DNA of 64,000 nucleotides. It comes from Burkholderiaceae bacterium. Lineage in GTDB: Bacteria > Pseudomonadota > Gammaproteobacteria > Burkholderiales > Burkholderiaceae_E. The notes under the pieces were generated by a model. That model saw only the letters and a list, made by a program, of their open reading frames with translations, did no database searches and had not been told where the DNA came from. Location: NCBI GenBank assembly GCA_023954045.1, contig JAMLIR010000001.1, forward strand, positions 248,001 through 312,000, written 5' to 3'. Made by a program: the position numbers and the translations under genes. Shown in pieces: positions 33,053 through 53,643 of this stretch; the stretch's first letter is position 1, and every line of letters starts with the position of its first letter.

Positions 33053-33055
33053 CTA

Positions 33056-34663: not shown

Positions 34664-34676
34664 CGCATCGATCGCC

Positions 34677-34991: not shown

Positions 34992-34993
34992 GC

Positions 34994-36358: not shown

Positions 36359-36397
36359 TTGCAATTCCTGCGTCCCGCGGGCCATCCCCAAGAAGGC

Positions 36398-37180: not shown

Positions 37181-37192
37181 CGTGAACAACTC

Positions 37193-38380
37193 CTAAAAGT
37201 CGTAGCGACCGAGAAGTTCACGAGCGATGATCATGCGTTGAATCTGGCTCGTGCCCTCCCCGATCTGGTACATCTTCGCATCGCGGTAGAAGCGCTCGAC
37301 CGGGAGATCGCGCATATAGCCGTATCCGCCATGGATCTCGATCGCAGCGCTGCAGGCTCTGAGAGAAGCCTCGGCAGCGAAGTACTTCGCCATTGCTCCT
37401 TCTTTCTTGATCGACAGTCCGGCCTCGTACATACGGGCAGCGTTCAGGGTCAAGAGGCGCGCGGCCTCGATGTCGGTCGCCATCTCGGCGATCGGCCACT
37501 GAATCCCCTGGAACGCCGCGATCGGGCGTCCGAACTGATTGCGCACCTTCGCGTATTCGACCGCGGCGTCCATGGCCGCCTGGGCCAGCCCGACCGAGAG
37601 CGCCGCGACGTTGATCCGGCCACGGTCCAGCGTCTGCGCGAACTGCCTGAACCCCTTTCCCTCGTCGCCAACGAGGTTCTCACGGGGAACCTCCACATCT
37701 TCAAAGAAAAGCTGCGCGGTCGGCGATCCATTCATGCCCATCTTCCGATCGTCCTTGCCGATCGAGAAGCCCTTCATGCCACGCTCGAGAATGAACGCCG
37801 ACACGCCCTGCGATCCGGAGCCTTCGGCAGTCCTTGCAGTCACCACGAAGATATCGGCGACGGTGCTGTTGGTGATGAATGCCTTCGCACCGTTCAGAAC
37901 ATATCGATCGCCGCGGCGAACAGCCTTGGTCCGGCACGCAGCGGCATTCGAGCCGCCCGACGGCTCTGTCAACCCGAAGGCACCGATCTTTCGGCCCGAC
38001 GTGAGCTCGACCAGATACTTGTGTCGCTGCTCCGCGGTGCCGTGGCCGGCAATGACGGATGAAGCGAGGCTGATGTGGGCATTGAGCGAACTGCCGACGG
38101 CGCCCGAGGCGCGTGAGACTTCCTCGAGCAGCAGACACACCATGACCGCATCGCAAGCAGCCCCGCCCCACTCCTCCGGATACGGCGCGCCCATGAAGCC
38201 GACCGCGGCCATCTCCTTGAACAGATCGATCGGAAACTCGGAGGTGGCATCGATATCGGCCGCGCGCGGTTCGATGCGCTCCCGGCAAAACCGCCTGACG
38301 CTGTCGAGGAACGCGAGCTGATCGTCGTTCAGCTGGTACTTGTTGGCAGAATTCGATCCGGCGACGGGTGCTTCGCTCAT
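37193..38380 (-). CDS. Acyl-CoA dehydrogenase
   Basis: A 395-residue FAD enzyme with [14 protein letters not shown], the substrate loop, [22 protein letters not shown] region, and catalytic Glu375 in [11 protein letters not shown]. The sequence pattern suits short or branched substrates such as isovaleryl-, 2-methylbutyryl- or citronellyl-CoA, but this is only a tendency. Its ATG overlaps the CoA-ligase stop (ATGA). Confidence 0.94.
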
Positions 38381-39930
38381 TTTTTCTTCCCGCTCATGTG
38401 TTCACTCGCGAGCAGCTCGCGCAGCGCGACGCGCCTGATCTTGCCGGACCCGGTTAGCGGCATGGCGTCGACGAAGGTCACGCGCTTCGGGCGCTTGAAG
38501 CTCGCCAGCGCCCGGGTGCAATGCCGCAGCACCTCCTCTTCGTTCAACCGGGCATCCGGGCTGGCGACCACGAACGCGTGAATCAACTCGCCGCTGATCT
38601 CGTGCGGAACGCCGACAACAGCGACCGACTGCACTCCGGGCAGCTCGGCGATGACGTTCTCGACCTCTTTCGGATAGACATTGAAGCCATTGCTGACGAT
38701 CATGTCCTTCGTGCGGTCGAGAATATGGATGTGTCCGCGCTCGTCGAGTTTCCCCACGTCTCCGGAGCGCAACCACCCGTCGCGTAGCGCCACGGCGGTC
38801 GCCTCCGGCTGGTTCCAGTACCCGATCATCAAGGTCGGCGAGCGGAACTGAAGCTCCCCTGCTTCGCCTGTCGGTGCCGGAGTACCGTCCAGTGCAATGA
38901 CGCGAACCTCGATTCCGGGAAGCGGTGCCCCGCACGAGCCGATCGAATTGTCCCCACCGGGAGGCTGCACGCTCGCAACCGGCGAGATCTCGGTGAGCCC
39001 GTAGCTCTCGACGACTTCGAGGCCGAAATCGTCTCGCAGCGACTGCTTGAGCCGGGGCGCCACCGGCCCGCCCCCTACGTCCATCAACCGGAGGCTGGAG
39101 ATGTCTCGCCCCGCGATGTTCGACGGGTCGAACATCCGCGCGAACATGGTTGGAACTCCCGCAATGAAGGTGACTCTCAGGCGTTCGATGCAGTCGACGG
39201 CCACGCGCTCATCGAACTGCTCCATGATCACGGTCGATGCGCGCACCAACCCGGCCTGGAGGAAGTCGAATGCATGCCCGAAACTGCTGAACATCGGCAG
39301 GATCGCGAGGTAGCGATCCGTGCTGCCGGTACCGAGGACGCGCGAGGTCATTCGAGCATTCAGCACCAACGCCGAGTGCCGCAGCAGGATCCCCTTCGGG
39401 GCACCGGTGGTGCCAGAACTGTAGATCATCATGGCCGGATCGTCCGGCGATGCGCCGTCGGCCCGCTCGACCGGGTTCGACCGGGCGATCAATGCGTCGT
39501 AGGCTTCCCAGCCAAGAGGCACCTCTTCCTTTTGCGCGACGACTCTCAGGCACATCCTGGCGACCTGCGCGCTGGACAGCACGCGCTCGAGCAGTCGCGC
39601 CTCGACCACGATCGCAGAAGCATCGCAGTCGGCGAGGATTCGATCGACCTCGCGTTCGGTGCTCATGGCGTTGATGGCGACGCCGATCGCACCGGCCAGA
39701 CCGCACGCTATGTAGAACTCGACGATCTCGCGCGAATTGCGCATCAGCCCGGCGACGCGGTCGTCCTTGCGCGCACCTGCCGCAACCAGTGCACCGGCGA
39801 GCCGGGCCGCCCGTTCGTAAGTCTGCGCATAGGTGATCTCGGTGCCGTCCACCAGAAGCAACTGGACGGCGTCGCCCGCTTCGCGCGCGGCACTGCGAAA
39901 GACGTCGTCCACCCGCATCGGGACGTTCAT
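38377..39930 (-). CDS. AMP-dependent acyl-CoA synthetase
   Basis: A 517-residue ANL-superfamily ligase that activates a carboxylic acid to its CoA thioester via acyl-AMP. Motifs: P-loop [12 protein letters not shown] near residue 168, [12 protein letters not shown], hinge [23 protein letters not shown] region, and the catalytic lysine in LTGSGKIRR near the end. Start at ATG 39930 ([11 protein letters not shown]). It provides the entry step of operon II and precedes the acyl-CoA dehydrogenase with a 4-bp overlap. Confidence 0.93.
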
Positions 39931-39946
39931 GATCTCTCCAATCCCG

Positions 39947-40690
39947 TCAAATCGACATCCTCTGGCCGCCGTCGACGACGATTGTCTCGCCCGTGATGAA
40001 GGCGGCCTTCTCGGAAACCAGAAACGCCACCAGTTCGCCGATCTCCCTGGGCTGACCGACCCGCCGAAGCGGAATGCGCGACACGATCCGCCTCGACAGA
40101 TCGGGATCGTCGAGTACATCCCGGGAGATCTCGCTGAGGATATAGCCGGGCGCAACGCACACGACGCGGATGCCATCGCGCGCCCACTCGGCTGCGAGCG
40201 CCCTGGTCAGGCCTTCGACCGCAGCCTTGGACGCACAGTAGGCCGCCGCGCCGGGCACGCCCATGGCGCCGAACATCGAGCCGATGTTGATGACCACGCC
40301 ACCGCCGCGCGCCCGCATTGATGGATGCGCCGCGCGGGCCAGCGCGTACTGCGCGACCAGGTTGACCTCTATCGCGTCGCGAAACCGCTGAACGCTCAAT
40401 TCGGCGGTGCGTGCTTCCGGCATGATTCCGGCGTTGTTGACCACCACGTCGACTCCACCGTGTGCCCTGGACGCCTCGGAAACGAAGTCGTTCAGCACCC
40501 CTTCATCGCTTACGTCGCCGAGGTGGACCGAGACGGACGCTCCGACCTCGCGCACCAGTGCCGCCGTCTCCTCCAGTGCCGCCGCGTCGCGGGCGAGGCA
40601 TGCAATCGCATAGCCTTCGCGCGCAAGCGATAGCGCGATGGCACGCCCGATGTTGCGGCTTGCGCCCGTGATCAGCGCAACCCGACTCAT
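39947..40690 (-). CDS. Short-chain dehydrogenase/reductase
   Basis: A 247-residue classical SDR with TGASRNIGRAIA (NAD(P) site), NNAGIM, active-site Ser and YCASK, and a FabG-like C-terminus TGETIVVDGGQRMSI. It probably acts on a 3-hydroxyacyl-CoA or an alcohol of the pathway. Start ATG 40690 overlaps the preceding SDR stop (ATGA). Confidence 0.92.
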   Translation of the reverse strand: MSRVALITGASRNIGRAIALSLAREGYAIACLARDAAALEETAALVREVGASVSVHLGDVSDEGVLNDFVSEASRAHGGVDVVVNNAGIMPEARTAELSVQRFRDAIEVNLVAQYALARAAHPSMRARGGGVVINIGSMFGAMGVPGAAAYCASKAAVEGLTRALAAEWARDGIRVVCVAPGYILSEISRDVLDDPDLSRRIVSRIPLRRVGQPREIGELVAFLVSEKAAFITGETIVVDGGQRMSI

Positions 40691-41493
40691 GCCTGGCCAT
40701 CCCCGAGGTCGGGCAAGACGAAGGCGCCCTTGTTGAGCCATTCGCCTCCGTCGATCGTGAACACCTCACCGTTGACGTAGTCCGCGGCCGACGAACAGAG
40801 GTAGACGCCCGCCTCTACCGTTTCTTCGACCGTCCCGAACCGTCCGGCCGGGATGCGGTCGATGATGCGTTGTTGGCCTTCCCGCGTCGGCCAGAGTACC
40901 GCGTGCGACTGCTCGGTGTCGACAAAGCCTGGGCACAGACAGTTGACCTGCACGTTCCTCCCGCCCCATTCGGCCGCCAACGTCTTCGACATTGCGATGA
41001 GGCCCGCCTTGGCCGCGGCCGAGTGGACCGTGCCGGGGCCACCGACCCACGCGTAGCTCGCAGTAACGCTCAGGATCTTGCCGCCCCCCTGCGCGAGCAT
41101 GCGCCGTCCGGCAGCCATGGTGCAGTATGCCGACCCATTCAGCACGATGTTGACGACCGAGTTCCAGCCGTTGGGCGTGATCTTCTCGGCACGACAGATG
41201 AAGTTCCCGGCAGCGTTGTTGACGAGCACATCGAACCGACCGGTCGTCTTGGCCACGCGATCGACGGTTGCTTCGACCGCCTGGGGGTCGCGGATGTCCA
41301 GGGGACAGACCAGCGCCTTGCCGCCGCGTTCCCGAATCGTCTCGGCGGTCGCTTCCAGTCGATCGACCTGTCGCGCCGCGAGCGCCACGGTGGCCCCGAG
41401 CTCAGCAAATCGCAATGCGAACGCGCGCCCGAGCCCGGTGCCCGCGCCGGTTACGAATGCGGTCTTGCCGCCGAACGAGTCGAACCCCTTCAT
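40687..41493 (-). CDS. SDR of the 2,4-dienoyl-CoA reductase type, first gene of operon II
   Basis: A 268-residue SDR with TGAGTGLGRAFA and NNAAGNF, the latter typical of 2,4-dienoyl-CoA reductases. The usual YxxxK tyrosine is absent: the segment reads TVHSAAAKAG, as in the DECR family where SxxxAKAG replaces it and another tyrosine acts. It is therefore likely to reduce a dienoyl-CoA with NADPH. Start ATG 41493 has AAAGGG upstream; a GTG three codons earlier would place that site too close. Promoter and operator lie at 41525-41579. Confidence 0.88.
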   Translation of the reverse strand: MKGFDSFGGKTAFVTGAGTGLGRAFALRFAELGATVALAARQVDRLEATAETIRERGGKALVCPLDIRDPQAVEATVDRVAKTTGRFDVLVNNAAGNFICRAEKITPNGWNSVVNIVLNGSAYCTMAAGRRMLAQGGGKILSVTASYAWVGGPGTVHSAAAKAGLIAMSKTLAAEWGGRNVQVNCLCPGFVDTEQSHAVLWPTREGQQRIIDRIPAGRFGTVEETVEAGVYLCSSAADYVNGEVFTIDGGEWLNKGAFVLPDLGDGQA

Positions 41494-41524
41494 CGTCGTC
41501 ACCCTTTGCCTGATGGACGCACCG

Positions 41525-41579
41525 AGTATGTGCGACCCGGAAACGTCCCGTCAAGAAATTATGGAATTGCGTTCCGCAC
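41525..41579 (-). promoter_or_regulatory. Promoter and shared operator of operon II
   Basis: Minus strand: operator GTGCGGAAC (41579-41571), which extends to GGAA-CGCAA-TTCC, exactly 16 bp before the -35 box TTGACG (41554-41549), then an 18-bp spacer and -10 CATACT (41530-41525). The predicted start is about 25 bp before the first ATG. GGAA-N5-TTCC matches the spacing of the E. coli IclR box. The same 9-bp motif at the same distance from the -35 occurs at 44219 and 49889. Confidence 0.78.
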
Positions 41580-41646
41580 AATGGACCTTACTGGAGATCC
41601 GCTCGAAGACGACCACGAACTTCCGCCTCTTGTCTGTCGATGGCGA

Positions 41647-42534
41647 TCAGTCGGCGACCACCGGACGTGCATCGGCAGCAACGGCTCCATGGGCACCGGT
41701 CTGCGCGCAGACGGCGTCTCTCACCGCGATGAGGCGCCTGCCGATCTCGTCCATCGTGCGACGCGGAAGGTGGCGCGCGGGCGCTCCACACGAGATCACC
41801 AGCGGCGGTCCCTCGACGCAGGTAAGCGGCACGGCCACACCGTTGATATCGAGCCGCCAACTCGCGACCGACCAGGTATACCCGCGCTCCCCGAACTGCC
41901 GCACCCCTTCGTCAATCTTGGCCGAGATGTCGGCCCAATGTTTTGCGTGACGGAGCCGCAGATGTTCCATCAGGAGGCGTCGCTCGGAATCCGGAAGAGC
42001 CGCCAACAGCGCATGTCCAGTCGCGGTGCCGGCCAGCGGAATACGCGATCCGACTTCGAGGCGCAGAGTCATGAGCGTCTTCTTGCTGTGGCAGACCTCC
42101 AGGTGGATGACGTCGAGTCGGTCGCGCCCCCCGAGCGCCGCGTGAACGCCGAATTCATCGGCGAGTTGTTCAAGGTACGGCCGCACCAGATCGCCCATGC
42201 TGTAGCTATCACGCGCGGCAAAGCCCAGGGCGAGTACTGCGGTACCCAGCCGATACTGGCGCCTGCGCTGCGAGTAGTGCAGGTAGCCCATCGCCGCAAG
42301 GCCCTGCAGCAGGCGCGAGGCAGTTGGCTTCGGCAGGCGCACGGCGTTGGCGACTTCAGTACTGCTTTGCCAGACCGAGCGATCGGCGAAGCTCTCGAGC
42401 ACCATCAGGCCCCTACCGAGCGCGGTCACGAAGTTCCGATCTGCGGATACCGCGCCGCGCGTGCGTCGCCTCGACAAGCGCTCGCGCACCGGGGCAAGCG
42501 TCGCACCCACCGGCTCCATTTCATCCGAACCCAC
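41647..42534 (-). CDS. IclR family transcriptional regulator
   Basis: A 295-residue regulator with a winged HTH at about residues 35-95 (SSTEVANAVRLPKPTASRLL) and an IclR effector-binding domain to the end. The GTG at 42534 is the chosen start because AGGAGG lies eight bases upstream. It stands 13 bp after a second IclR gene and directly upstream of operon II. Candidate regulator of the GTGCGGAAC sites. Confidence 0.93.
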   Translation of the reverse strand: MGSDEMEPVGATLAPVRERLSRRRTRGAVSADRNFVTALGRGLMVLESFADRSVWQSSTEVANAVRLPKPTASRLLQGLAAMGYLHYSQRRRQYRLGTAVLALGFAARDSYSMGDLVRPYLEQLADEFGVHAALGGRDRLDVIHLEVCHSKKTLMTLRLEVGSRIPLAGTATGHALLAALPDSERRLLMEHLRLRHAKHWADISAKIDEGVRQFGERGYTWSVASWRLDINGVAVPLTCVEGPPLVISCGAPARHLPRRTMDEIGRRLIAVRDAVCAQTGAHGAVAADARPVVAD

Positions 42535-42547
42535 GGCAGAGCCCTCC

Positions 42548-43375
42548 TCACTCGTTCCAGAACGTCATGCCAAGGCTCGCAACCGTGTTCGCGATGTCGC
42601 CGGCGAGGTCGATCAACGCGGGACCCAGTACGCGCCGGAACTTCTCTTCGGTGTGGTGAGGACGCCTGGCGCCGCAGTTCAAAGCCAGAATGGTGGCGCC
42701 TTGGTCGAGTACCAGAGGCACTCCGACGGCAAATATCTCCGGCTTCCACTCACCAAAGGAGACCGCGTAGCCATCGCGCGCCACCTGCTGCATGGCCAGG
42801 CGAATCCGCTCCCGGACCTGCGGCGCCTGTTCGCCTGCCTGCTCTTCGATCAACCGCAATCGCGCTTCGCGATCGTCGGCCGACATTGCGTGCAGATAGG
42901 CACGCCCCATTGCGGTCGAGCTCATCGGGATCTCCGTGCCCACGCGCAATCGCATCGCAACGGTCCTGGGGCCCACACACGTATCGAGATACACCATCCA
43001 TGCGCCGTCCCCGGCGCCCAGGCCCACCGGCATCTCGTGGCGCTGTGCGAACTCGGCCATCAGCGGATGGGCGATCTGACGCACCGGAAGACCACGCAAC
43101 AGCGCGTGGCCGAGCGTGCTCACCTTGTCGCCGAGGTGATACTGACCTGCCGGTCCGGCCTTGCGAAGGTAATCCATGCGGACCAGTGTGTACGTGAGCC
43201 GCGCAACGGTCGCCTTCGGCAACCCCGTGCGCTCGGCGATCTCCTTGTTCCCCAACGGACCATCGACGGACCGGAATGTCCGGAGGATCTCGAGCCCGCG
43301 CCGCAGCGAGGTCGCCCCCACGTCGCCACCGTTGGGCGATTCCAGAATCGGGGTCGGCTTCCGGGGCAGCGGCAT
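42548..43375 (-). CDS. IclR family transcriptional regulator
   Basis: A 275-residue IclR protein: HTH at about 15-75 (GNKEIAERTGLPKATVARL) followed by the effector domain. It differs clearly in sequence from the neighbouring IclR, so the pair is not a recent duplication. ATG 43375 lies one base after the crotonase stop; the frame is open further upstream but only as antisense of that gene. Second candidate for controlling operons II to IV. Confidence 0.93.
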   Translation of the reverse strand: MPLPRKPTPILESPNGGDVGATSLRRGLEILRTFRSVDGPLGNKEIAERTGLPKATVARLTYTLVRMDYLRKAGPAGQYHLGDKVSTLGHALLRGLPVRQIAHPLMAEFAQRHEMPVGLGAGDGAWMVYLDTCVGPRTVAMRLRVGTEIPMSSTAMGRAYLHAMSADDREARLRLIEEQAGEQAPQVRERIRLAMQQVARDGYAVSFGEWKPEIFAVGVPLVLDQGATILALNCGARRPHHTEEKFRRVLGPALIDLAGDIANTVASLGMTFWNE

Positions 43376-43376
43376 C

Positions 43377-44162
43377 TCAGCGGCCAACCCAGACGGGCTT
43401 GCGCTTCTCGGCGAAGGCGCGCGGCCCTTCCTGAGCATCTTCGCTCGCGTAAACCTTCTTGTAGATGGTCTTCGCATGGTCGAACCCGGCGGCGCAGCCC
43501 AGATCCATGGCCCCCAGGATCGCCTCCTTTCCCGCCGCGACGGTCAGGGGAGCATTGTCACGAATGCTCCGCGCAACATCCATCGCACGCGCTCGAACTG
43601 CTTCGGGGGTGAGCTCGACGTAGTTGACGAAGCCGAGCGCGTGCAGGCGCTCGACTGGCATCATCACCCCGGTCAACAGCATCTCGGCCACGATTGGCTG
43701 CGGAAGCATCCATAGCAGCGGCACGGCCCACGGTGAGCCGCGGCCGATCTTCGCTTCGGTGACTCCGCCGCGCGTGCCCGCAAGCCCCACCCTGATGTCC
43801 GAGTTCAGGCACAGCATCATGCCGCCAGCCGCGAAGTGCCCGGTCATCGCCGCAACGATCGGCTTGCTGACCACGCGCATCCGCTCGTAGAAGGGATCGG
43901 AGAGGACGTCGAGGATGTCGACGCCGCGCTCGCGCCGGATCTCGGCCGCTTCCTTCAAATCCATGCCGGCGCAGAAGGTGCCGCAATCTGCCGATGTCAG
44001 TACGGCGGCCCTGACCTCCGGATCACGATCGAGCTCGTACCACAAGGCGTGCAGACGCTCGGCGGCGGCGATCGACAGCGCGTTGCGTCGTTCCGGTCGA
44101 TTGAGAGTAATCACTGCAATGCCGTCATCGACCGCGTACTGGACGATCTCGTTATCGCTCAT
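43377..44162 (-). CDS. Crotonase-superfamily protein (enoyl-CoA hydratase-like)
   Basis: A 261-residue crotonase with oxyanion region FCAGMDLKEA. Of the two hydratase glutamates, the second is kept (VTEAKIGRGSPW) while the first is Met (AAGGMMLCLNSDI). One-glutamate members include isomerases and some dehydratases or hydrolases, so the exact reaction is open. It leads a minus-strand unit with two IclR genes and is divergent from operon III, sharing a 141-bp control region. Confidence 0.86.
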   Translation of the reverse strand: MSDNEIVQYAVDDGIAVITLNRPERRNALSIAAAERLHALWYELDRDPEVRAAVLTSADCGTFCAGMDLKEAAEIRRERGVDILDVLSDPFYERMRVVSKPIVAAMTGHFAAGGMMLCLNSDIRVGLAGTRGGVTEAKIGRGSPWAVPLLWMLPQPIVAEMLLTGVMMPVERLHALGFVNYVELTPEAVRARAMDVARSIRDNAPLTVAAGKEAILGAMDLGCAAGFDHAKTIYKKVYASEDAQEGPRAFAEKRKPVWVGR

Positions 44163-44218
44163 GCCCGGGTTTCCGAGTTCGTGAATGTGACCACGAATGA
44201 TAGCGCCTGAATACCACT

Positions 44219-44272
44219 GTGCGGAACCTTTTTTCAATATTTGTTGCGCTAGTGCCCATCGCTTGGCATCAT
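44219..44272 (+). promoter_or_regulatory. Promoter and shared operator of operon III
   Basis: GTGCGGAAC (44219-44227), 16 bp, -35 TTGCGC (44244-44249), 17-bp spacer, -10 CATCAT (44267-44272). Predicted start about 25 bp before the GTG start codon. The right half of the operator is weaker (TTTC) than in operon II. Because the crotonase-IclR-IclR unit starts on the other side, the same site could also affect those genes. Confidence 0.74.
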
Positions 44273-44303
44273 CGCCTGAGCAAACCTTGGCAGGAGTGCG
44301 CGC

Positions 44304-45467
44304 GTGGAAACTGGATCGACCCCATACCTCGACTTCGGGCTTGAACCCGAACACTTGACCTTTCGCGAGCAGTTCCGGCGCTTCGTACAGGATCAACTCG
44401 AGCCGATCGCCATCGAGGCAGAGGCGAAGGGCGAATTCCCAAAGGAGGTTTACCGGAAGCTGTCTGAACACGGCTACCTCGGCGTCAATTTTCCCGAGGA
44501 GATCGGCGGCGGTGGCGGCGACCTGCTGATGGGCTGCATCTTCTACGAAGAGCTGACGAGAGCGTCGGCTGGCATCTCGGCGGGCGTCTTCGCCCACCAG
44601 CACCTTGCAGCCGGTCCGGTATTGAAGTTCGGCACCGAGGCGCAGAAGTCCGAGTTCGCGTACCCAGCCGCACGCGGCGAGCGGATCGGTGCGTTCGGCC
44701 TCACAGAGCCTGATGCCGGGAGCGACATCCGGGGCATCAAGACCCGAGCCCGGAAAGTCGGCGGCAACTGGGTCATCAACGGCAGCAAGCTCTACATCAC
44801 CAACGGCGGGATTGCCGACTTCATCTTGGTGGCAGCACGAACCGGCGATGACCGCCGTTCGGACAGTCTGACCCTGTTCCTGGTAGATACACGCGACAAA
44901 GGCGTGAACGCATCGGAGCTTCGGAAGGTCGGCAACCATTCATCCTCGACCGCCTTCATAAGCTTCGAGGACGTGACGATCGCGCCGGACTACGTGCTGG
45001 GAAGTGTCGGCCAGGGTTTGAATCAACTCAAAGCCACCCTGACCGAGGGCCGGATCCTCGTCGCCAACCGCGGCCTCGGCATCGGTCAGGAAGCCTGCGA
45101 ATGCATCCTGCGCTACGCACGCGAGCGAAGTGCATTCGGGCAGCCAATCGCCAAGTTCCAGGCGATCGCATTCAAGGTAGCAGAGATGGCGATACGATGT
45201 GACGCCGCGCGGCTGATGATCTATCGGGCCGCTCGCCTGAAGATGGCAGGCGAGGATTGCATCCGCGAAGCCTCGATGGCCAAGTTCATGGCGAGCGAGC
45301 TTGCCGTACAGGCTGCAACGTCATCGCTGCTGCTGCACGGCGGCGCCGGCTACATGGAAGAGATGAAGGTCGCAAGGCTTTTTCGTGACGCACCCGAAGC
45401 GTGGATCGGCGAAGGAACCAACGAGATCCAGTTGTTGGTCATCTCGAAGGCGCTGGGCCTACTTTGA
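44304..45467 (+). CDS. Acyl-CoA dehydrogenase
   Basis: A 387-residue FAD enzyme with FGLTEPDAGSDIRG, LLLHGGAGYMEEM and catalytic Glu370 in WIGEGTNEIQ. Third acyl-CoA dehydrogenase of the region, in a separate operon and clearly different in sequence from the other two, so a different step or chain length is likely. It starts at GTG 44304, supported by AGGAG eight bases upstream. First gene of operon III. Confidence 0.93.
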   Translation: METGSTPYLDFGLEPEHLTFREQFRRFVQDQLEPIAIEAEAKGEFPKEVYRKLSEHGYLGVNFPEEIGGGGGDLLMGCIFYEELTRASAGISAGVFAHQHLAAGPVLKFGTEAQKSEFAYPAARGERIGAFGLTEPDAGSDIRGIKTRARKVGGNWVINGSKLYITNGGIADFILVAARTGDDRRSDSLTLFLVDTRDKGVNASELRKVGNHSSSTAFISFEDVTIAPDYVLGSVGQGLNQLKATLTEGRILVANRGLGIGQEACECILRYARERSAFGQPIAKFQAIAFKVAEMAIRCDAARLMIYRAARLKMAGEDCIREASMAKFMASELAVQAATSSLLLHGGAGYMEEMKVARLFRDAPEAWIGEGTNEIQLLVISKALGLL

Positions 45468-45481
45468 CGGAGCAGGCTGTG

Positions 45482-47446
45482 ATGGCAAGGCAACTGCAAG
45501 CGCTCGAGCAGGCGCCGCACGACGGCAACCACGCCTATCCGTCACTGTTCTCGCCATTCCGCTTGGGCCGCCTGCAGTTGCGCAACAGGGCGATGGTGCC
45601 GGCCATGACGACGAACTTCGCGCAGGCCGACGGCTCTGTGGGCGATGCCCTGATCGGCTATCTCGTGGAGCGGGCGCGCGGTGGCTTTGGGTCTATCGTC
45701 ACCGAGAATATCGGCGTGCACCCCGGGGGTCGCGTAATGCCCCGCATGGTGATGGCCGACGATGATCGCTACGTTCCCGGATTGCGCCGCCTTGCGTCGG
45801 CTGTGCATGGCGCGGGCGGCGTCCTGATCGGACAGATCAGCCACGCGGGCCGTCAGACACGCAGCCGGATTACGGGCCAGCAACTCGTCGCGCCATCCGC
45901 GATCCCGTGTCCACTGAACCGCGAACTGCCGCGCGAGCTGTCGGCCCTGGAGATCGAACGGCTCGAAACGGCGTTCATCGACAGTGCGCAGCGGCTCGCT
46001 GACGCAGGATTCGACGGAGTAGAGATCCACGGCGCGCACGGCTATCTGGTCGGTTCGTTCCTGTCCGCTTACTCCAACCGCCGCAACGATGCATACGGCG
46101 GCACCCCGGAAAACCGCATGCGCTTCCTGCGCCGGATTGTCTCGGGAATCAGAGCCCGACTCGGCGATGAGTTCCCGCTGATTGTCCGAATCAGCGCCTG
46201 CGAGTTCGTGCCGGACGGCCTCGACGTCGAACAAGCTGTCGTGATCGCCAACCAGCTCCATGCCGACGGAGTTCACGCGCTCTCGGTCTCGGTCGGCGTC
46301 TACGAATCGTTCAACAAACTCTCGATGATCACCGGGGAGCCGGAAGGACAGTGGCTGACCCTTGCCGGGCAGATCAAGAGCCGCACGACGATGCCGGTAG
46401 TCGGCGTCGGGCGGATCAAGCGCGCATCGGTCGCCGAAGCAGCAATCGCGACTGGACAGATCGACATCGCCGCGTTTGGGCGCGCGTCAATTGCAGATCC
46501 GCGGATTCCGGCGAAAATTCTGGCCAACCAGGAGCGAGACACAGTCTGGTGCCTGGGCTGCAATATCTGCCTCGGTCGCTCGGCGCGACCCGAAACGATC
46601 TGCCCGGTAAATCCTCTGGTCGGGCGCGAAAGTTCAATCCGGTTGCGGCTCGCTCGTCACCCGCGTGCGCTCGCGATCCATGGCACTTCGATCGCCGCCT
46701 TGACCGCCGCCTGGATCGCGGCGGCTCGCGGCCACCCGGTCACAGTCGTCACCCGCGCCGACGAGCCGGTCGGCGGAATGCAGGCATGGCGTGCAAAGGT
46801 TCCGGGTCAGCGGGAGTACGGCGAAGTCGTTGACGCCGTACTGCGGCGCGCAGTCAACGCCGGCGTACGGGTCGGTGATTCGCTCACAATCAACGAGGAT
46901 GTACAGATCTGGCGCACGCGGCAGTACCAGCCGATCGATCAGGACCGGCTTGATGACCTGCCCGGCTCAATATCGAGTTATGCACTGCTGGCGCAATCCG
47001 TGAGCGTCCCCCCTGGCCGCCGTGTGGTGGTGATCGGCGATGACCTTTCCGCGGCCGAAGCGGCGCTTCTGGCCGCGTCGCGCGGAGCGCGGGTCATTCT
47101 TCATTCGTCCACATCAGCCATCGCGGTCGACGCCCATCCAGGCTACCGTGAGATCACGCTGCGCCAGATCCTTGCCCATGGCGGAAAGGTAACGCAGGAT
47201 GCGCCTCGATACGATCCCGGAGACCTCGTCGTCGTCGGGCACGCCCGGAACGCGTCCTATGACGATGCAGATAACTGGTCGTTGCCGCTCGATCCGGCCG
47301 AGCGCCTGCTTTCGGATGCCTACGAACCCGGGGCCATGACCAGGGGAATATACGAAGCGTTCGCTATGGCGATGGACTTCGGCGGGCCGCATGCCGACGA
47401 GCCGTCGTGCGGCGACGAACCGCTGGCTCGACTGGCAGGCCTTTGA
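45482..47446 (+). CDS. FadH-like 2,4-dienoyl-CoA reductase/NADH:flavin oxidoreductase (FMN, Fe-S, FAD)
   Basis: A 654-residue multidomain flavoenzyme: old-yellow-enzyme TIM barrel at about 20-350 with EIHGAHGYL (Tyr188 at the proton-donor position of FadH), a [4Fe-4S] motif at Cys357, Cys360, Cys363 and Cys374, and a C-terminal FAD/NAD(P) region. The usual first dinucleotide motif is degenerate (AIHGTSIAALTAAW lacks GxGxxG), so FAD binding may be altered. Likely reduces an unsaturated acyl-CoA. Start ATG 45482 lies 14 bp after the dehydrogenase stop; 16 bp precede the next flavoenzyme. Confidence 0.85.
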   Translation: MARQLQALEQAPHDGNHAYPSLFSPFRLGRLQLRNRAMVPAMTTNFAQADGSVGDALIGYLVERARGGFGSIVTENIGVHPGGRVMPRMVMADDDRYVPGLRRLASAVHGAGGVLIGQISHAGRQTRSRITGQQLVAPSAIPCPLNRELPRELSALEIERLETAFIDSAQRLADAGFDGVEIHGAHGYLVGSFLSAYSNRRNDAYGGTPENRMRFLRRIVSGIRARLGDEFPLIVRISACEFVPDGLDVEQAVVIANQLHADGVHALSVSVGVYESFNKLSMITGEPEGQWLTLAGQIKSRTTMPVVGVGRIKRASVAEAAIATGQIDIAAFGRASIADPRIPAKILANQERDTVWCLGCNICLGRSARPETICPVNPLVGRESSIRLRLARHPRALAIHGTSIAALTAAWIAAARGHPVTVVTRADEPVGGMQAWRAKVPGQREYGEVVDAVLRRAVNAGVRVGDSLTINEDVQIWRTRQYQPIDQDRLDDLPGSISSYALLAQSVSVPPGRRVVVIGDDLSAAEAALLAASRGARVILHSSTSAIAVDAHPGYREITLRQILAHGGKVTQDAPRYDPGDLVVVGHARNASYDDADNWSLPLDPAERLLSDAYEPGAMTRGIYEAFAMAMDFGGPHADEPSCGDEPLARLAGL

Positions 47447-47462
47447 CGACGCAGACCCCGCC

Positions 47463-48602
47463 ATGGCGCGACCACTGCTCTTCACTCCCATCAGGCTGCG
47501 TGCGGTCGAACTGCGCAACCGTTTGGCGATTTCGCCGATGTGCCAATACTCGGCCCGCGACGGGTTGGCCAGCGATTTCCATCTTGTGCACCTTGGAAAA
47601 TTTGCGATGGGCGGCGCAGGTCTGGTGTTCGCCGAGGCAACTGCCGTGCACGAACGTGGCCGGATTACGCACGGCGACCTCGGCCTGTGGCACGACGGTC
47701 AGATTGCGCCACTCAAGCGCATCACCGATTTCCTGCGACAGTTCGGCGCCGTGCCGGCAATACAACTTGCACACGCAGGACGCAAGGCGAGCATGCAACG
47801 CCCGTGGAACGGCAATGGTCCTCTCGACGAGCGCGATTTCGCCGCCGGCGAGATCCCTTGGCCCATCGTCGCCCCGAGCGCTTTGCCGGTCGCCGCGGGC
47901 TGGCTCGTGCCACACGAACTCTCAATTGCCGACCTAGGTGCGCTCAGGGAAGCTTGGCGAGCCGCCGCATTGCGCGCACTGGATGCCGGCTTCGAAGTCG
48001 CGGAGGTACACGGCGCCCACGGATACCTGCTGCACGAGTTCCTGTCGCCACTTTCGAACCGCCGCAACGACGCGTACGGAGGTGGCCTGGCCGCTCGGAT
48101 GCGCTTTCCGCTCGAGGTCGTCGAAACGGTGCGTGCGGTCTGGCCCGCCGATAAACCTCTTTTCTTCCGGATCTCCGCCGTCGACGGGATCGACGGCGGA
48201 TGGACGCTGAACGACAGCGTGACCTTCGCCCGAGCGCTCCGGGAGCGTGGCGTGGACGTCGTCGACTGCTCGTCCGGAGGCCTGACAGGGTCGGCAACTG
48301 CAGCCCGCAGGCCGCGAAGCCCCGGCTTCCAGGTCCCATTCGCGGAGACGATACGACGCGAGGTATCAACCGCGACGATGGCGGTCGGTCTGATCTTCGA
48401 CGCCTTTCAGGCCGAACAGGTACTGCAGAGCGGTGCCGCCGATCTAGTCGCCATCGGCCGCGAAGCACTGTACAACCCGAACTGGCCGCTTCATGCCGAA
48501 AAGGCGCTCGGCGCCGCCAGTCAATTCCATTCCTGGCCGAGCCAATACGGCTGGTGGCTCGAGCGACGCGCGCGCGAACTGGCGGCATGCAAAGCCAACT
48601 AG
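47463..48602 (+). CDS. Old yellow enzyme family NADH:flavin oxidoreductase (YqjM/NamA-like)
   Basis: A 379-residue FMN TIM-barrel enzyme. SPMCQYSARDG near residue 22 carries the Cys typical of the thermophilic-like YqjM class; HGAHGYLLHEFLSPLSNRR gives the substrate His and FMN contacts. Enzymes of this class reduce activated C=C bonds of enones or enoates. I start at ATG 47463 (MARPLLFTPIRL), 16 bp after the FadH-like gene. Two ene-reductases in a row suggest a conjugated, possibly terpenoid, substrate. Confidence 0.9.
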   Translation: MARPLLFTPIRLRAVELRNRLAISPMCQYSARDGLASDFHLVHLGKFAMGGAGLVFAEATAVHERGRITHGDLGLWHDGQIAPLKRITDFLRQFGAVPAIQLAHAGRKASMQRPWNGNGPLDERDFAAGEIPWPIVAPSALPVAAGWLVPHELSIADLGALREAWRAAALRALDAGFEVAEVHGAHGYLLHEFLSPLSNRRNDAYGGGLAARMRFPLEVVETVRAVWPADKPLFFRISAVDGIDGGWTLNDSVTFARALRERGVDVVDCSSGGLTGSATAARRPRSPGFQVPFAETIRREVSTATMAVGLIFDAFQAEQVLQSGAADLVAIGREALYNPNWPLHAEKALGAASQFHSWPSQYGWWLERRARELAACKAN

Positions 48603-48857
48603 CCAACGATCGGCACGGCAAACCAGTTGAAAGTGGAAGCGCTCACGGAACGCGTTGACCGTGCCTGCGGAACGACCACACGGTGCACTCAATTCGCAGT
48701 CACAGAAGCCAGCGCGTCCCATGGAGCATTCCCTCCGCGACTGATCAACCATCGCCCCACGAACCGAGTCGGCGCGAGGCGCGCCACCGACACTGATGTA
48801 GATTCGGCCCGAGTGCCCTGTCTTGACCAGCAGCCCTGCGATCCGGGAGCCACCAGC

Positions 48858-49613
48858 ATGCAGAAAGCGATCCGCTACGAAGAACTGAACACGGACAGTC
48901 TCGAGGTCGGAGCGTACCGACGCGCCATCGTTCCGATAGGTTCGTGCGAGAGCCACGGCGGGCACCTTCCATTCGGAACGGATGCGATGATCGCACGCGA
49001 CCTCGCGCTCGCCGTCGGCGAACGCCTCCAACGCACCTTCGTGTTGCCGCCGACATGGTTCGGGATGAGCGAGCACTATCGGCACCTCCCGATGTCGATC
49101 TCGCTCTCGACCGACACGGCGACGCGTCTGTTCAGCGACATTTTCCGCTCGCTGGCGCATTGGGGAATCGAGGAGGTGATCGTCATCAACGGCCACGACG
49201 GGAATCTCCCCTGCCTCGAGATCGCAGCGAGAAACTCGCGACAGTCCAATCCGGAGATGCGTATCGCGGCGCTCGCGACGTGGTGGAGTACGGTGACGAA
49301 ACTGCTGCCGCGCGAAACATTCGGCTCGATTCGCGGAATGGGACATGGAGGCGAAGGAGAGACTTCCCTCGCGCTCGCGTTGTTTCCGGATCTCGTGGAT
49401 GTGACGAAGGGACGGCGAGCGATACCGCGCACGGATCGCCACATCGTCCAGTACTGGACGTTCGAGGAGTTGACCGATTGCGGCTCGACCGGAGACCCCT
49501 CCGCAGCAACGCCTGACAAGGGTCGCGCGATGCGCGATGCGCTGGTGAAGTGCGTAGTCGAGTTCGTCGAAAACGTCGAGCGCAATGGCTGGGACCGTCG
49601 CGGACCGACGTGA
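48858..49613 (+). CDS. Creatininase-family amidohydrolase
   Basis: A 251-residue metal-dependent amidohydrolase with ligand motif GSCESHGGHLPFGTD (Glu31, His33, Asp42), VINGHDGN and HGGEGETSLAL, matching creatininase and the mycofactocin protein MftE. True creatinine use is unlikely in this context; cleavage of a cyclic amide, formamide or other C-N bond is possible. Start ATG 48858 follows CGGGAG at a good distance; the 255 bp before it contain no other convincing gene. Last recognisable gene of operon III. Confidence 0.86.
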   Translation: MQKAIRYEELNTDSLEVGAYRRAIVPIGSCESHGGHLPFGTDAMIARDLALAVGERLQRTFVLPPTWFGMSEHYRHLPMSISLSTDTATRLFSDIFRSLAHWGIEEVIVINGHDGNLPCLEIAARNSRQSNPEMRIAALATWWSTVTKLLPRETFGSIRGMGHGGEGETSLALALFPDLVDVTKGRRAIPRTDRHIVQYWTFEELTDCGSTGDPSAATPDKGRAMRDALVKCVVEFVENVERNGWDRRGPT

Positions 49614-49706
49614 TCAGGACTGATGTCGCACCGATCCGTCTTGACCGTTGCCTTGTCCGGGCCGCGAAGTGGTGCGCCCGGGTCGCCGCGGCACGCAAAA
49701 CCCGTA

Positions 49707-49772
49707 TTGACGCCCAGGGACTCGACAAACATACTCGATCGGTGTCGGAACGTTTGTTCTGTTCAATAGAAC
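49707..49772 (+). promoter_or_regulatory. Promoter with downstream GAAC/GTTC palindromes
   Basis: A -35 box TTGACG (49707-49712), 17-bp spacer and -10 CATACT (49730-49735), followed by GAAC-GTTT-GTTC (49748-49759) and GTTC-AATA-GAAC (49761-49772). The palindromes would cover about +6 to +30, a repressor position. The architecture is the same as the operon I promoter at 30986-31046. Distal promoter for the liv operon region. Confidence 0.65.
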
Positions 49773-49888
49773 GCCATTCGCGATGTGCCGATTGCTCAGG
49801 ACGCGATCCGGACTTGCCCATGGCGGCTTGATGTGCGCCCCACTCGAGTCCCGTTCTAGCAAAGCTTGCAGGGAGCATCTGGTCCACA

Positions 49889-49942
49889 GTGCGGAACGTG
49901 ATTTTAAAAATGCTTGGCCTTCTGATCGAGTTCCGCTAGCAT
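49889..49942 (+). promoter_or_regulatory. Promoter and shared operator of operon IV (liv)
   Basis: GTGCGGAAC (49889-49897), 16 bp, -35 TTGGCC (49914-49919), 17-bp spacer, -10 TAGCAT (49937-49942). Third copy of the module seen before operons II and III. The predicted start is about 650 bases before livK, which makes the leader unusually long. Confidence 0.72.
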
Positions 49943-50590
49943 GGCCCGAGTTGCGGTTGCACATTCGGGGCTTCAGATCGAGACGCTGTTGCCGGAGGCA
50001 CGCTCGCGGGGCGAGAGACCGCCGTGGCCTGCGGTGTGCGCGGATCGCGCGCTCTCCGGGCACTGGAAGTCCGAAAGGCACAGTGCTGCAATGATGACCA
50101 AGGGAGACAGGACGATGTGGAACAAATCGGTAGTAGGCCCGGCTACTCGACATTGGCGCCGTGCTTTGCCGCGGGCGCCGGGTACTCGGGTTGCGGCCTA
50201 GCGGTCGACGTCTTCGGATCGCAACACGCCCTCGATTCGTCGCCGATGGACTCGGGCGCAGGACCGCTTGGGATGGAGACAAGCTTCGCGGCGCCAGGGC
50301 CATGTGCCTCACAGGAGTCCAGCGACCCCGCCGGTGTCTCGCTGTTTCTGCGCGGCGTCGGTGGCTCGTGCGCCGTGTATCCCGCAGTCACGGAACAGTC
50401 GAACGCGATCGTCAGGGCGCTGTGGCGCTCCGCGGCCTCCGGCACCAACAGGTGCGACATGTGTGTTCAGGACGGTTTGGTGCGCAGGCAGTCCGGCGAA
50501 GGAAGGCGGGCGGCATCGCTAGGTGGTAGGGGCAACGGTCAGGCAACGGCCGCGGCGTCTACCGAGTGGAGCAGGACGGCTACTACTTGA

Positions 50591-50596
50591 AGGAGG
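50591..50596 (+). promoter_or_regulatory. Ribosome binding site deciding the livK start
   Basis: A perfect AGGAGG stands directly against an ATG at 50597 and six bases before a second in-frame ATG at 50603. Only the second has workable spacing, so livK starts at 50603. Confidence 0.8.
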
Positions 50597-50602
50597 ATGA
50601 AG

Positions 50603-51775
50603 ATGAACAGTATCCGGGCGATGAGAGCGGCAGGCGCTCTAGCCTTGGCGGCGGGCCTCGCATGGGCGAACCCTGCCATGGCCCAGACCGAGGTCCTGAA
50701 GATGGGGGTGGTGAGTGCACTGACCGGACCGGGCTCGGAATGGGGCCTGGCGCAGGACGGGGCCCTCAAGATCGCAGCGGCGGAGGCGAATGCCAAAGGC
50801 GGTCTGAAGGTCGGTAACAAGACCTACAAGATCGAAGTCATCTCATACGATGACCAGTACAAGGCGGCCCTGTCCGTGTCTGGCGCGACGCGCCTGATCG
50901 AGCAGGACAAGGTCAAGTTTGTCTTCGGCCCGATGGGGTCGGCTGCTCTCCTGGCCGTCAAGCCCCTGTACGAGAAGAACAAGATTCTCGCCGTCATCGG
51001 CGCCTACACCGAAAAGGCTCTCGACAAGGACACCAAGTATTCGTATCGGGGATTTCCGACCCAGACCGAATTCGCGGGCCCTATCGCGAAGTGGGTGAAG
51101 AGCAACCGCCCGAATCTGAAGACGGTGGCACAGCTCGAGCCGAACGACGAAACCGGCTGGGCATCCCAGCGTTTGCTCAAAGCCGACTATCAGACGGCGG
51201 GTTTCGAAATCGTGTCCTCCGAGCTGGTCGAGCGCAGCGTGAAGGACTTCCAGCCCGTACTCACGCGCATCCTGGCCTTGAAGCCGGACATCATCGAGCT
51301 CGGTACGACCCCGCCCGGCACGTCCGGACTGATTGTTCGGCAAGCACGTGAAATGGGATTCAAGGGACAGTTCGTCAAACTCGGCGGACCGGGCGTGCCG
51401 CAGATCGTGGCGGCGGCCGGCAAGGAGTTCGCAGAAGGCCTCATCTGCTATGCCGCGGCCGACACCACCACCAAGGCCTACAAAGACCTGGAGGTGAAGT
51501 ACGCGCAAGTGCTGAAGCCGCCGATGAACGAGTTCACCGTGTACTTCTACGACATGGCTCGCATGCTGCTGGAAGCGATCCAGCGGGCCGGCACCGTGGA
51601 TGACACCGACAAAGTCCGGGCTGAGTTCGAGAAGTTGAGCCCCTTCCCCGGCGTCCAGGGTGCGGTTCGATGGAGTGGCATGAATAGCTATGGATCCAAC
51701 CACCAGATCATCACCCCGGTGTTTGTCGGAACGATCAAGAATGGCGAGCAAGTGATCGCCGGAAAGATCGACTAG
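50603..51775 (+). CDS. livK: Branched-chain amino acid-type ABC transporter, substrate-binding protein
   Basis: A 390-residue periplasmic binding protein (Peripla_BP_6 fold). A typical Sec signal runs MNSIRAMRAAGALALAAGL and ends at an AMA-Q cleavage site near residue 27. The mature part begins EVLKMGVVSALTGPGSEWG, the usual lobe-1 strand and ligand loop. The family binds Leu/Ile/Val but also aromatic, dicarboxylic and terpenoid acids. In this setting a carboxylic acid degraded by operons I to III is likely. First gene of the importer operon. Confidence 0.9.
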   Translation: MNSIRAMRAAGALALAAGLAWANPAMAQTEVLKMGVVSALTGPGSEWGLAQDGALKIAAAEANAKGGLKVGNKTYKIEVISYDDQYKAALSVSGATRLIEQDKVKFVFGPMGSAALLAVKPLYEKNKILAVIGAYTEKALDKDTKYSYRGFPTQTEFAGPIAKWVKSNRPNLKTVAQLEPNDETGWASQRLLKADYQTAGFEIVSSELVERSVKDFQPVLTRILALKPDIIELGTTPPGTSGLIVRQAREMGFKGQFVKLGGPGVPQIVAAAGKEFAEGLICYAAADTTTKAYKDLEVKYAQVLKPPMNEFTVYFYDMARMLLEAIQRAGTVDDTDKVRAEFEKLSPFPGVQGAVRWSGMNSYGSNHQIITPVFVGTIKNGEQVIAGKID

Positions 51776-51791
51776 CGCAAGACCAGAGCCC

Positions 51792-51818
51792 CCGCCGCGG
51801 CCGGACCTGCCGCGGCGG
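51792..51818 (+). other. Intercistronic hairpin between livK and livH
   Basis: A perfect 9-bp inverted repeat (CCGCCGCGG with CCGCGGCGG), 9-base loop, 16 bp after the livK stop. Only a short T run follows at a distance, so it is more likely to stabilise the livK message or cause partial termination, giving more binding protein than permease, as in other binding-protein operons. Confidence 0.75.
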
Positions 51819-51844
51819 CCCCTTTCGCTGACGGGGCAACCACC

Positions 51845-52696
51845 TTGGAACTCGCATTGCAGATTGTAGTGAACGGCCTCATGTCGTCACTGGTCTACAT
51901 CTTGATGGCCCTGGGCTTCACGCTCATCTTCGGCATCATGCGCGTGGTCAATTTCGCTCATGGCGAGATGTACATGATCGCGGCGTTCCTGGTCTATGCG
52001 TTGGTCGGCTCCCTTGGCTGGAACTACTACCTGGTGGTCATCCTATCTGCGCTCGCGTTGGGCCTGTTCGGCGCGACGCTCGAGCGCGTACTGTTCCGCC
52101 CCTTCGTCGGACGCGAACTGCAGGGCATGATCATGGCGCTGGCCGTCTCGATCACGCTCCAGGCCGCGGCGTTCATACTCTTTGGTGCGAACGATCTGTC
52201 TGTACCGCGGCCAATCTCCGGCGTATTCGACTTCGGGGCGATGGTAATTCCGCGTGATCGCCTCGCCGTGGGCGCATGCGCATTGGTCGTACTCCTGGCG
52301 TTCTACGTGTTCATGCGCTATACGAGGACCGGACTCGCGATGCGGGCCGTCGTGCAGGACGAGGACATCGCCTCGATCCACGGCGTGCGCCCGAAGATCA
52401 TCCATCCCCTCGCATTCGGCATCGGCGCCATGCTCGCAGGCTTTGCGGGCGCGCTGATGGCCCCGATCTACACCATCCACCCCTATATGGGCGCGCAGCC
52501 CATGCTCAAGGCTTTCATCGTCGTGATCCTCGGCGGCCTGGGGAGCGTACCCGGGGCGGTGCTTGGCGGAATCGTCCTGGGCCTGCTCGAGTCGGTATTT
52601 GCCACCCTGCTCAACACGACGGTCGCCACGATGATCTCGTTCGGAATCGTCGTGCTGATCCTGCTCTTCAAGCCGACCGGGCTGCTGGGGCGCTGA
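51845..52696 (+). CDS. livH: Branched-chain-type ABC transporter permease LivH
   Basis: A 283-residue inner-membrane permease with about eight segments, beginning LALQIVVNGLMSSLVYILMA and carrying the LivH motif VVNFAHGEMYM. The start is TTG at 51845, since no ATG precedes the first membrane segment at a suitable place and family N-termini align here; the ribosome site is weak. It pairs with LivM, two bases downstream, to form the pore. Confidence 0.93.
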   Translation: MELALQIVVNGLMSSLVYILMALGFTLIFGIMRVVNFAHGEMYMIAAFLVYALVGSLGWNYYLVVILSALALGLFGATLERVLFRPFVGRELQGMIMALAVSITLQAAAFILFGANDLSVPRPISGVFDFGAMVIPRDRLAVGACALVVLLAFYVFMRYTRTGLAMRAVVQDEDIASIHGVRPKIIHPLAFGIGAMLAGFAGALMAPIYTIHPYMGAQPMLKAFIVVILGGLGSVPGAVLGGIVLGLLESVFATLLNTTVATMISFGIVVLILLFKPTGLLGR

Positions 52697-52698
52697 CG

Positions 52699-53643
52699 AT
52701 GAAAGTCCTATTGAAGTACCTCGTGCTTCTGGCGCTGCTGGCCGCGGCGCCCTTCGTCGTGCTAACCCCCTTCCTCACGCACATCGGGGTGATGATCGGG
52801 ATCTATACAGTGCTGGCGTTGAGCATGAACCTGATGCTGCGAATCGGACAGATCTCCTTCGCACATGGAGCGTTCATGGGGCTGGGTGCCTATGGCTCGG
52901 CACTCATGATGATGCGCCTGGACTTGCCGTTCGCGGTAGCGTTCTTCGCGGCGGCCCTCGGCGTCACCCTGCTGGCCTGGCTCGTCGGGGTTCTCTTTCT
53001 GCGCATCCGCGGCGTTTACTTCGTCCTGCTGACCTTTGCGTTCGGCGAGATCATCGTTCTGACCTTCGTCGAGTGGGTGAGCCTCTTCGGCGGCAGCGGC
53101 GGCTTGCCCGGGGTACCCTCTCCCCGCTTGTTTGGCTACGTGATCGCCAGCCGCGAAGGCTTCTACCTGCTGTCGCTGGCACTGGCCGCGTTCGCCTATG
53201 CGTCGGTGCGGGCCATCTACCGCACGGAACTCGGCGCCGTGATCACTTCGCTGGACGAAAACGAAGCGCTCACTCGCTCATTGGGCATAGACTCGCGTCG
53301 TTACCGGCTCCTGACGTTCTGCTTCAGCGCATTCTTGGCCGGCATGGCCGGCGCACTCTACGGTCACTACCTTACGCTGGTGACGCCGGAGGACTACGGC
53401 TTCTGGGTACCGGTGAACCTGGTGATGATGAACGTCATCGGCGGAATTGCCCACCCCATCGGTTCCGTCCTCGGCGCGCTGCTGTTGGTGCCCCTGCCTG
53501 AGTTGTTGCGCGACGCGAAACAGTATCAGATGCTGCTGTACGGCATCGTGCTCATCTTCTTCCTGTTGTTCATGCCCGACGGCGTACACGGGTTGATCAA
53601 CAAACTCAGAGGGCAGCTGACGAGAAGGGAGATCTCGCGGTGA
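52699..53643 (+). CDS. livM: Branched-chain-type ABC transporter permease LivM
   Basis: A 314-residue permease with the LivM signatures LMLRIGQISFAHGAFMGLGA near residue 50 and SLDENEALTRSLGID (cytoplasmic loop for the ATPases). ATG 52699 is two bases after the livH stop. The end overlaps livG as GTGA. Confidence 0.94.
   Translation: MKVLLKYLVLLALLAAAPFVVLTPFLTHIGVMIGIYTVLALSMNLMLRIGQISFAHGAFMGLGAYGSALMMMRLDLPFAVAFFAAALGVTLLAWLVGVLFLRIRGVYFVLLTFAFGEIIVLTFVEWVSLFGGSGGLPGVPSPRLFGYVIASREGFYLLSLALAAFAYASVRAIYRTELGAVITSLDENEALTRSLGIDSRRYRLLTFCFSAFLAGMAGALYGHYLTLVTPEDYGFWVPVNLVMMNVIGGIAHPIGSVLGALLLVPLPELLRDAKQYQMLLYGIVLIFFLLFMPDGVHGLINKLRGQLTRREISR

Follow-up and report, generated by a model that had tools for sequence, protein, structure and literature searches.

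Does a nonamer repeated in front of three operons mark a single regulon? The question is raised by a 64,000-nt stretch of the genome of a Burkholderiaceae bacterium (contig JAMLIR010000001.1, positions 248,001 to 312,000; the whole stretch is referred to below as the window), in which GTGCGGAAC precedes a row of genes resembling the Atu cluster, an operon for acyl-CoA dehydrogenase (ACAD) and Old Yellow Enzyme (OYE) family proteins, and a liv-type ABC importer, close to adjacent genes for two IclR-family regulators, IclR1 and IclR2. We found that the nonamer is the middle part of a larger three-box operator. From sequence comparisons, the three sites are likely to be copies of one IclR-family operator through which IclR2, possibly together with IclR1, would regulate the three operons as one regulon. 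A single IclR regulon for the uptake and breakdown of an organic compound is very probably real.

Nonamer Sites and Their Putative Promoters

In the window, GTGCGGAAC is present in four copies, at 38602 (plus strand), 41571-41579 (minus strand), 44219-44227 (plus strand), and 49889-49897 (plus strand). The mean count in shuffled windows was 1.13, and at least four copies were reached in 2 of 100 shuffles. The last three copies are followed by exactly 16 bp and then by TTGACG, TTGCGC, and TTGGCC, respectively, with −10-like hexamers CATACT (18 bp further), CATCAT (17 bp), and TAGCAT (17 bp). Of the putative promoters, promoter 1 (41525-41554, minus strand) leads into the Atu-like operon, promoter 2 (44244-44272, plus strand) leads into the ACAD operon, and promoter 3 (49914-49942, plus strand) stands before the importer. 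In promoters 2 and 3, both hexamers match the consensus poorly. An earlier note on this DNA had described the three positions, the 16-bp gap, the TTG-type −35 box, and the −10-like box 17-18 bp on, and each of these was borne out in the window. The fourth copy (38602-38610) lies within a coding frame, has no TTG 16 bp on, and is not counted as an operator. It is present at the equivalent place in a relative, Lautropia sp. SCN 69-89.

A genome-wide scan, which the same note had proposed, returned only the claimed places: in the bacterium's own genome (4,020,733 bases, 97% complete), GTGCGGAAC-N16-TTG has exactly three matches, all at the three operon sites, and the reversed-pattern control has none. 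With one mismatch allowed, this pattern gave 23 matches versus 14 in the control, and the nonamer itself gave 38 matches in the window versus 27.5 expected, a number reached in 6 of 100 shuffles. The one-mismatch forms are not specific, so that only the exact form is informative. The exact pattern was matched in 13 of 74 genomes of the family; the own genome and genome G060 had three sites each, and the other 11 had one each.

Anatomy of the Operator

Alignment of 19 sites, numbered so that position 1 is the first base of the nonamer, revealed three boxes: NYCR upstream (box 1), the core TGCGGAA(Y), and TTYYA downstream (box 3). The core TGCGGAA, at positions 2-8, is the same in all 19 sites. 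The columns of box 1 played no part in picking the sites; they contain a pyrimidine at −5, C at −4, and a purine at −3 without exception (19/19 each). In box 3, T14 and T15 occur in 17, Y16 in 19, C17 in 15, and A18 in 18 of the 19 sites. The operator is asymmetric, with a strict core and looser outer boxes. In the window, operator 1 occupies 41558-41586 on the minus strand (box 1, 41586-41581; core, 41578-41571; box 3, 41566-41562). Operator 2 (44212-44240, plus strand; box 1, 44212-44217; core, 44220-44227; box 3, 44232-44236) lies between the divergent operons that start with enoyl-CoA hydratase (ECH, followed by IclR2 and IclR1) and with ACAD, and operator 3 occupies 49882-49910 on the plus strand (box 1, 49882-49887; core, 49890-49897; box 3, 49902-49906).

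The GGAA-N5-TTCC arrangement pointed out in the earlier note is present in the first site. The accompanying picture of a nonamer followed by a T-rich centre overlooked the upstream box; because box 1 is conserved about as well as box 3, a reading based on GGAA-N5-TTCC only is replaced by three boxes. The pattern of conservation can be followed in an alignment of the window with two related loci, L041 (from the Lautropia genome) and L042 (Burkholderiales SJ14). Identical columns amount to 75/210 in the upstream flank, 10/12 in box 1, 6/9 in the middle triplet, 22/24 in the core, 7/12 in the N4 spacer, 13/15 in box 3, 12/21 at positions 19-25, 17/18 in the −35 box, 65/90 at positions 31-60, and 45/101 beyond. 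The −35 box of promoter 1 is identical in all three.

Three-box IclR operators, with half-sites of alternating direction, are a published class (Suvorova and Gelfand 2021, PMC8222616), in which the sites of PcaU, PobR, and HmgR are cited as three-box. Boxes 1 and 2 of the present operator fit the group 1 consensus GKTYCRYW3-4RYGRAMC at most key positions: GCGGAA is found in 19, Y−2 in 16, and C9 in 15 of the 19 sites, T−6 in only 11. Boxes 2 and 3 likewise fit the group 2 consensus TGRAACAN1-2TGTTYCA at most key positions, with GGAA in 19/19. The operator differs from that class in that C replaces the leading T of group 2 in all 19 sites, the middle triplet holds G (at its base 1) in 9/19, the outer boxes are looser, and two IclR genes accompany the site. 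The operator class is known, and the predicted regulon is a new example of it. No report of this three-operon IclR regulon was found in the literature searched, and the available main text of PMC6449761 contains neither GCGGAA nor TTCCGC.

The pattern DTGCGGAAYNNNNTTYYA, which combines the core with box 3, has three matches in the own genome, at the identical places, and none in the control.

Conservation in Related Loci

The ECH-IclR2-IclR1 cluster was found at ten loci in nine genomes or plasmids, each locus having been fetched with only one of the two IclR proteins. A scan of genome contigs with IclR2 confirmed four loci, L041 (93%), L042 (81%), L043 (Hyphomicrobiaceae PRO8, 64%), and L044 (Marivibrio halodurans, 55%). 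Among plasmids, IclR1 matched in a single record (54%), the conjugative plasmid NZ_CP085149.1 of Sulfitobacter dubius (L065), whose relative of the cluster comprises the IclR pair, AtuA, carboxylase, and ACAD; the importer there is of the TRAP and not the liv type. IclR1 also matched in four of 43 genomes of the order of Marivibrio (Marivibrio and three more), giving loci L087-L090. One of these genomes, G472, holds two copies of the cluster (L087 and L088), each with three operators. In the family of the window, IclR1 matched in 14 of 74 genomes; only G060 exceeded 40% identity, the other matches reaching at most 40%. Among 399 genomes drawn from the order, IclR2 had a close match only in the own genome and in G418, others among the matches listed being 34-42% identical. 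The rare and patchy occurrence of the cluster, together with the plasmid copy, suggests horizontal movement.

All three sites are kept in L041 and L042, each with the 16-bp gap. A matrix built from the six sites of the window and L042 detected three strong sites each in L043 and L044, the weakest of which scored 25.2 bits (versus 11.2 for the next match) and 19.1 bits (versus 8.7), respectively. A matrix from the nine betaproteobacterial sites (window, L041, and L042) detected three sites each in L043, L044, L087, L088, and L089 (21.4-34.1 bits) and one strong site in L090, which is cut by a contig end (32.2 bits; next match, 17.4); L087-L090 contributed to no matrix. The same matrix scored 34.6 bits at a site before a short-chain dehydrogenase/reductase (SDR) gene in L091, whose other match is the L043 site at 1390 again, 28.2 bits in L080, and 26.8, 18.8, and 18.6 bits at the weaker plasmid sites. 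In the window, L043, L044, L087, and L088, thirty column-shuffled matrices produced a total of one match of at least 20 bits, versus 15 for the real matrix. In whole genomes, the core with box 3 ending in R has three matches in that of L041, three in that of L042, six in that of L043, and four in that of L044 (controls: 0, 1, 0, and 0). One extra match in the Hyphomicrobiaceae genome of L043 precedes, with N16-TTGACG, an orthologue of the SDR gene that comes first behind operator 1, so that this operator is kept there too. Another, near a gene for a liv-type binding protein on a different contig, points away from the gene and lacks a TTG at the usual spacing. Two matches were not counted as sites, namely L081 in the genome of L043 (13.1 bits, inside a long open frame) and L067, an extra match in that of L044 (16.6 bits). 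At three sites (L043 1390, L044 2024, and L080), a mechanically called open frame crosses the site, although conservation of the protein starts only behind it.

In the nine loci not cut by a contig end, operators are placed in front of an importer operon and of acyl-CoA genes and next to the regulator operon (the last being weak on the plasmid). The targets resemble each other across the loci, comprising an importer, genes for CoA activation or ACAD/SDR, and the AtuA operon. In the window, L041, and L042, the targets are the Atu-like row, the ACAD/OYE row, and the liv importer. They are ACAD, a liv-type binding protein, another ACAD, and SDR in L043 and its contig; an ADP-forming-type acyl-CoA synthetase, a TAXI-TRAP type (NMT1-like) binding protein, and AtuA in L044 and L087-L089; and an acyl-CoA synthetase in L090. 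The plasmid targets are a gene of the acetate-CoA ligase family, a TRAP binding protein, and an ECH/MaoC region, the last weakly. In 9/9 loci that contain the ECH region, an operator (a weak one in the plasmid) stands beside this first gene of the regulator row, an arrangement consistent with autoregulation. Conservation in relatives was a check named in the earlier note, and the operators are kept together with the IclR pair from beta- to alphaproteobacteria; with the uniqueness of the sites in the own genome, this lends support to the proposal made there, that an adjacent IclR protein may control uptake and degradation as a single regulon.

The distance between the nonamer and TTG is less constant. 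It is 16 bp in 9/9 betaproteobacterial sites and at the SDR site in the genome of L043; elsewhere, it is 15, 17, and 17 bp in L043; 17 and 14 bp in L044, whose third site has none; 14, 17, and 17 bp in L087, L088, and L089 (where the middle site has a TTG at 14 bp as well); 14 bp in L090; and 13, 14, and 14 bp on the plasmid. A strict 16-bp code was rejected, as the other sites are spaced by 13, 14, 15, or 17 bp or, in two cases, lack a TTG anywhere at 11-19 bp. The exact 16-bp promoter code claimed initially is therefore a local rule, which holds in the window, L041, and L042.

Candidate IclR Readers of the Operator

Both regulators are encoded on the minus strand, in a row (44162 to 41647) that begins with ECH (43377-44162; PF00378) and continues with IclR2 (42548-43375) and IclR1 (41647-42534), which adjoins IclR2 in 10/10 loci. 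Both proteins score above the gathering thresholds of PF09339 and PF01614, the HTH and C-terminal domains of the IclR family (for IclR2, with a longer start). The best NCBIfam match of both is PcaR/PcaU/PobR (TIGR02431), at 108.8 and 117.6 bits, far under the curated cut-off of 284.75.

Comparisons of the HTH (helix-turn-helix) domain point to IclR2 (42548-43375) as the likelier reader of the operator. In the alphaproteobacterial loci and the plasmid, the HTH of IclR2 is 71-81% identical to that of the window, and the remainder of the protein 47-60%; the corresponding values for IclR1 are 52-75% and 52-70%. The recognition stretch KATVARL of IclR2 is identical in 10/10 loci, and its IclR1 counterpart varies. 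That the HTH is far better conserved than the remainder and that some distant IclR2-like regulators share the operator make IclR2 the better candidate. We searched 37 loci of distant IclR homologs (18 fetched with IclR2 and 19 with IclR1), where TGCGGAA occurred 27 times in 23,824 positions at most 330 bp upstream of the IclR gene versus 21 times in 248,458 positions elsewhere; 19 of the 37 loci had it upstream. The core with box 3 was found in 11 of 18 loci fetched with IclR2 versus none of 19 fetched with IclR1. When homologs were divided by alignment score, it was present in 11 of 27 closer to IclR2 versus none of 10 closer to IclR1, a contrast confounded by taxon. In three Burkholderiales loci (L047, L052, and L059; 3.7 kb fetched per locus), a site of 25.3, 15.0, and 23.9 bits, respectively, lies between a gene for an IclR2-like regulator and a divergent acyl-CoA dehydrogenase, and these regulators are 38-41% identical to IclR2. 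The best 12 matches in 48 control loci (169,008 bases) scored 15.0-26.6 bits; of these, 11 came from the loci of distant IclR2 homologs and one from L032. The operator is thus shared by a wider group of IclR regulators and not confined to the pair.

It is also conceivable, though quite unlikely, that the operators are read by IclR1 (41647-42534), with IclR2 serving some other function. IclR1 is present in 10/10 loci, is better conserved than IclR2 outside the HTH, and has TGCGGAA upstream of 8 of the 19 homologs fetched with it. The excess of HTH identity over that of the remainder, however, is −3 to +6 points for IclR1 and 16-29 points for IclR2 in the alphaproteobacterial loci and the plasmid (10 and 13 points in L042), the 13-residue recognition stretch has 7 invariant positions in IclR1 and 10 in IclR2, and the distant homologs carrying the core with box 3 all belong to those closer to IclR2.

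The constant pairing of the two genes raises another alternative, that IclR1 and IclR2 form a mixed complex on the asymmetric site, in which IclR2 would read DNA and IclR1 would sense the effector. The strict core and looser outer boxes would suit such a complex, as would the distribution of constraint, IclR2 being most constrained in its HTH and the remainder having 84/186 invariant columns in IclR1 versus 68/205 in IclR2. We nevertheless consider a mixed complex rather unlikely: pairing may reflect merely two effectors, and single IclR regulators, PcaU among them, are described as having three-box sites (PMC8222616). Among the papers searched, judged by title and the start of the abstract, none on an IclR heteromer was found. 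Alternative dimerisation on three-box sites has been suggested, and its authors call for experimental validation (PMC8222616); an IclR pair that stays together in ten loci offers a system for testing mixed IclR complexes. A broader reading, improbable on balance, is a conserved, horizontally moving cassette in which an IclR1/IclR2 mixed complex acting on the asymmetric three-box operator would travel with changing uptake and acyl-CoA genes.

Several observations weigh against the preferred model, in which IclR2 acts through one three-box operator. As the sites were found through the core, its invariance is partly a matter of construction. The plasmid sites deviate in box 3, and a weak third plasmid site, outside the 19, carries TGCGAAAT. 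In the own genome, box 1 and the core without box 3 have 49 matches versus 15 in the control; these two boxes alone are not specific, whereas the three boxes together are. No TTG is found at 11-19 bp from the AtuA site of L044 or from the L080 site. Loci L087-L090 are close relatives, and the locus counts are therefore not independent. Co-occurrence cannot separate IclR1 from IclR2, both being present in all ten loci. The distant-homolog data are support, not proof, since the two sets differ in taxa, 7 of the 11 loci with the core and box 3 come from one family, and 0/11 own-family homologs closer to IclR2 have this combination. That the sites are chance repeats, or belong to an unrelated factor, gains something from the low specificity of box 1 with the core, from the mild enrichment of the one-mismatch pattern, and from the choice of the pattern after the fact. 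Such an origin is nonetheless highly improbable, given that sequence, place, and gene context are kept with the IclR pair across alpha- and betaproteobacteria, and that the sites fit the IclR three-box consensus at key positions.

Proposed Mode of Regulation

In the model that we favour, IclR2 (42548-43375), possibly with IclR1, would bind the operators at roughly −68 to −44 (assuming a transcription start ca. 7 bp after the −10 box), just upstream of σ70-type −35 boxes. The regulator may sense an intermediate of the pathway, possibly an acid or an acyl-CoA, and would then activate all three operons (Atu-like, ACAD/OYE, and liv importer) as a single regulon; operator 2 may let it control its own operon too. 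Activation is favoured because the operator lies just upstream of the −35 box and because promoters 2 and 3 have poor −35 and −10 boxes. The IclR family includes repressors and dual regulators as well as activators (PMC8222616), and the AtuA site of L044 and the L080 site have no visible −35 box at the usual distance; the regulator might thus bind the same operators and mainly repress. We regard repression as rather unlikely, since the operator is placed upstream of the promoter core and not over it, and since the poor boxes of promoters 2 and 3 fit activation.

A repeat spotted by eye thus becomes a testable regulon, in which a shared operator and its candidate reader are linked to three promoters and a defined set of pathway genes, and a clear case is added to the predicted class of three-box IclR operators (PMC8222616).

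Genes of the Predicted Regulon

The order of genes suggests that each row is transcribed as one unit. The Atu-like operon (31067-41502, minus strand) contains two SDR genes, an AMP-ligase, ACAD, ECH, AtuA, a carboxyltransferase, and a biotin carboxylase. PF07287, PF01039, PF00289, and PF00364 were found in it, pointing to an AtuA-family protein and a biotin-dependent acyl-CoA carboxylase. Likeness to the acyclic terpene utilisation (Atu) cluster lies in the side-by-side placement of these genes. The known regulator of that cluster, AtuR, belongs to the TetR family; here, in contrast, there is an IclR pair, along with OYE enzymes, a creatininase-family protein, and the liv importer.

The liv-type ABC importer (50597-55191, plus strand) comprises a binding protein, two permeases, and two ATPases. 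Its first gene is separated from promoter 3 by ca. 650 bp (49943-50596). This stretch aligns with L041 over 532 bp (82%), whereas its alignment with L042 is confined to the vicinity of the operator and resumes at about the start of the gene, so that it looks like an unconserved leader.

The ACAD/OYE operon (44304-49613, plus strand) encodes ACAD, two OYE-family flavoenzymes, and a creatininase-family protein. At 45401-49613, the two OYE-family enzymes, one of which resembles BaiCD, are thus encoded together with the creatininase-family protein next to the Atu-like genes; this unusual mix may constitute an undescribed acyl-CoA pathway.

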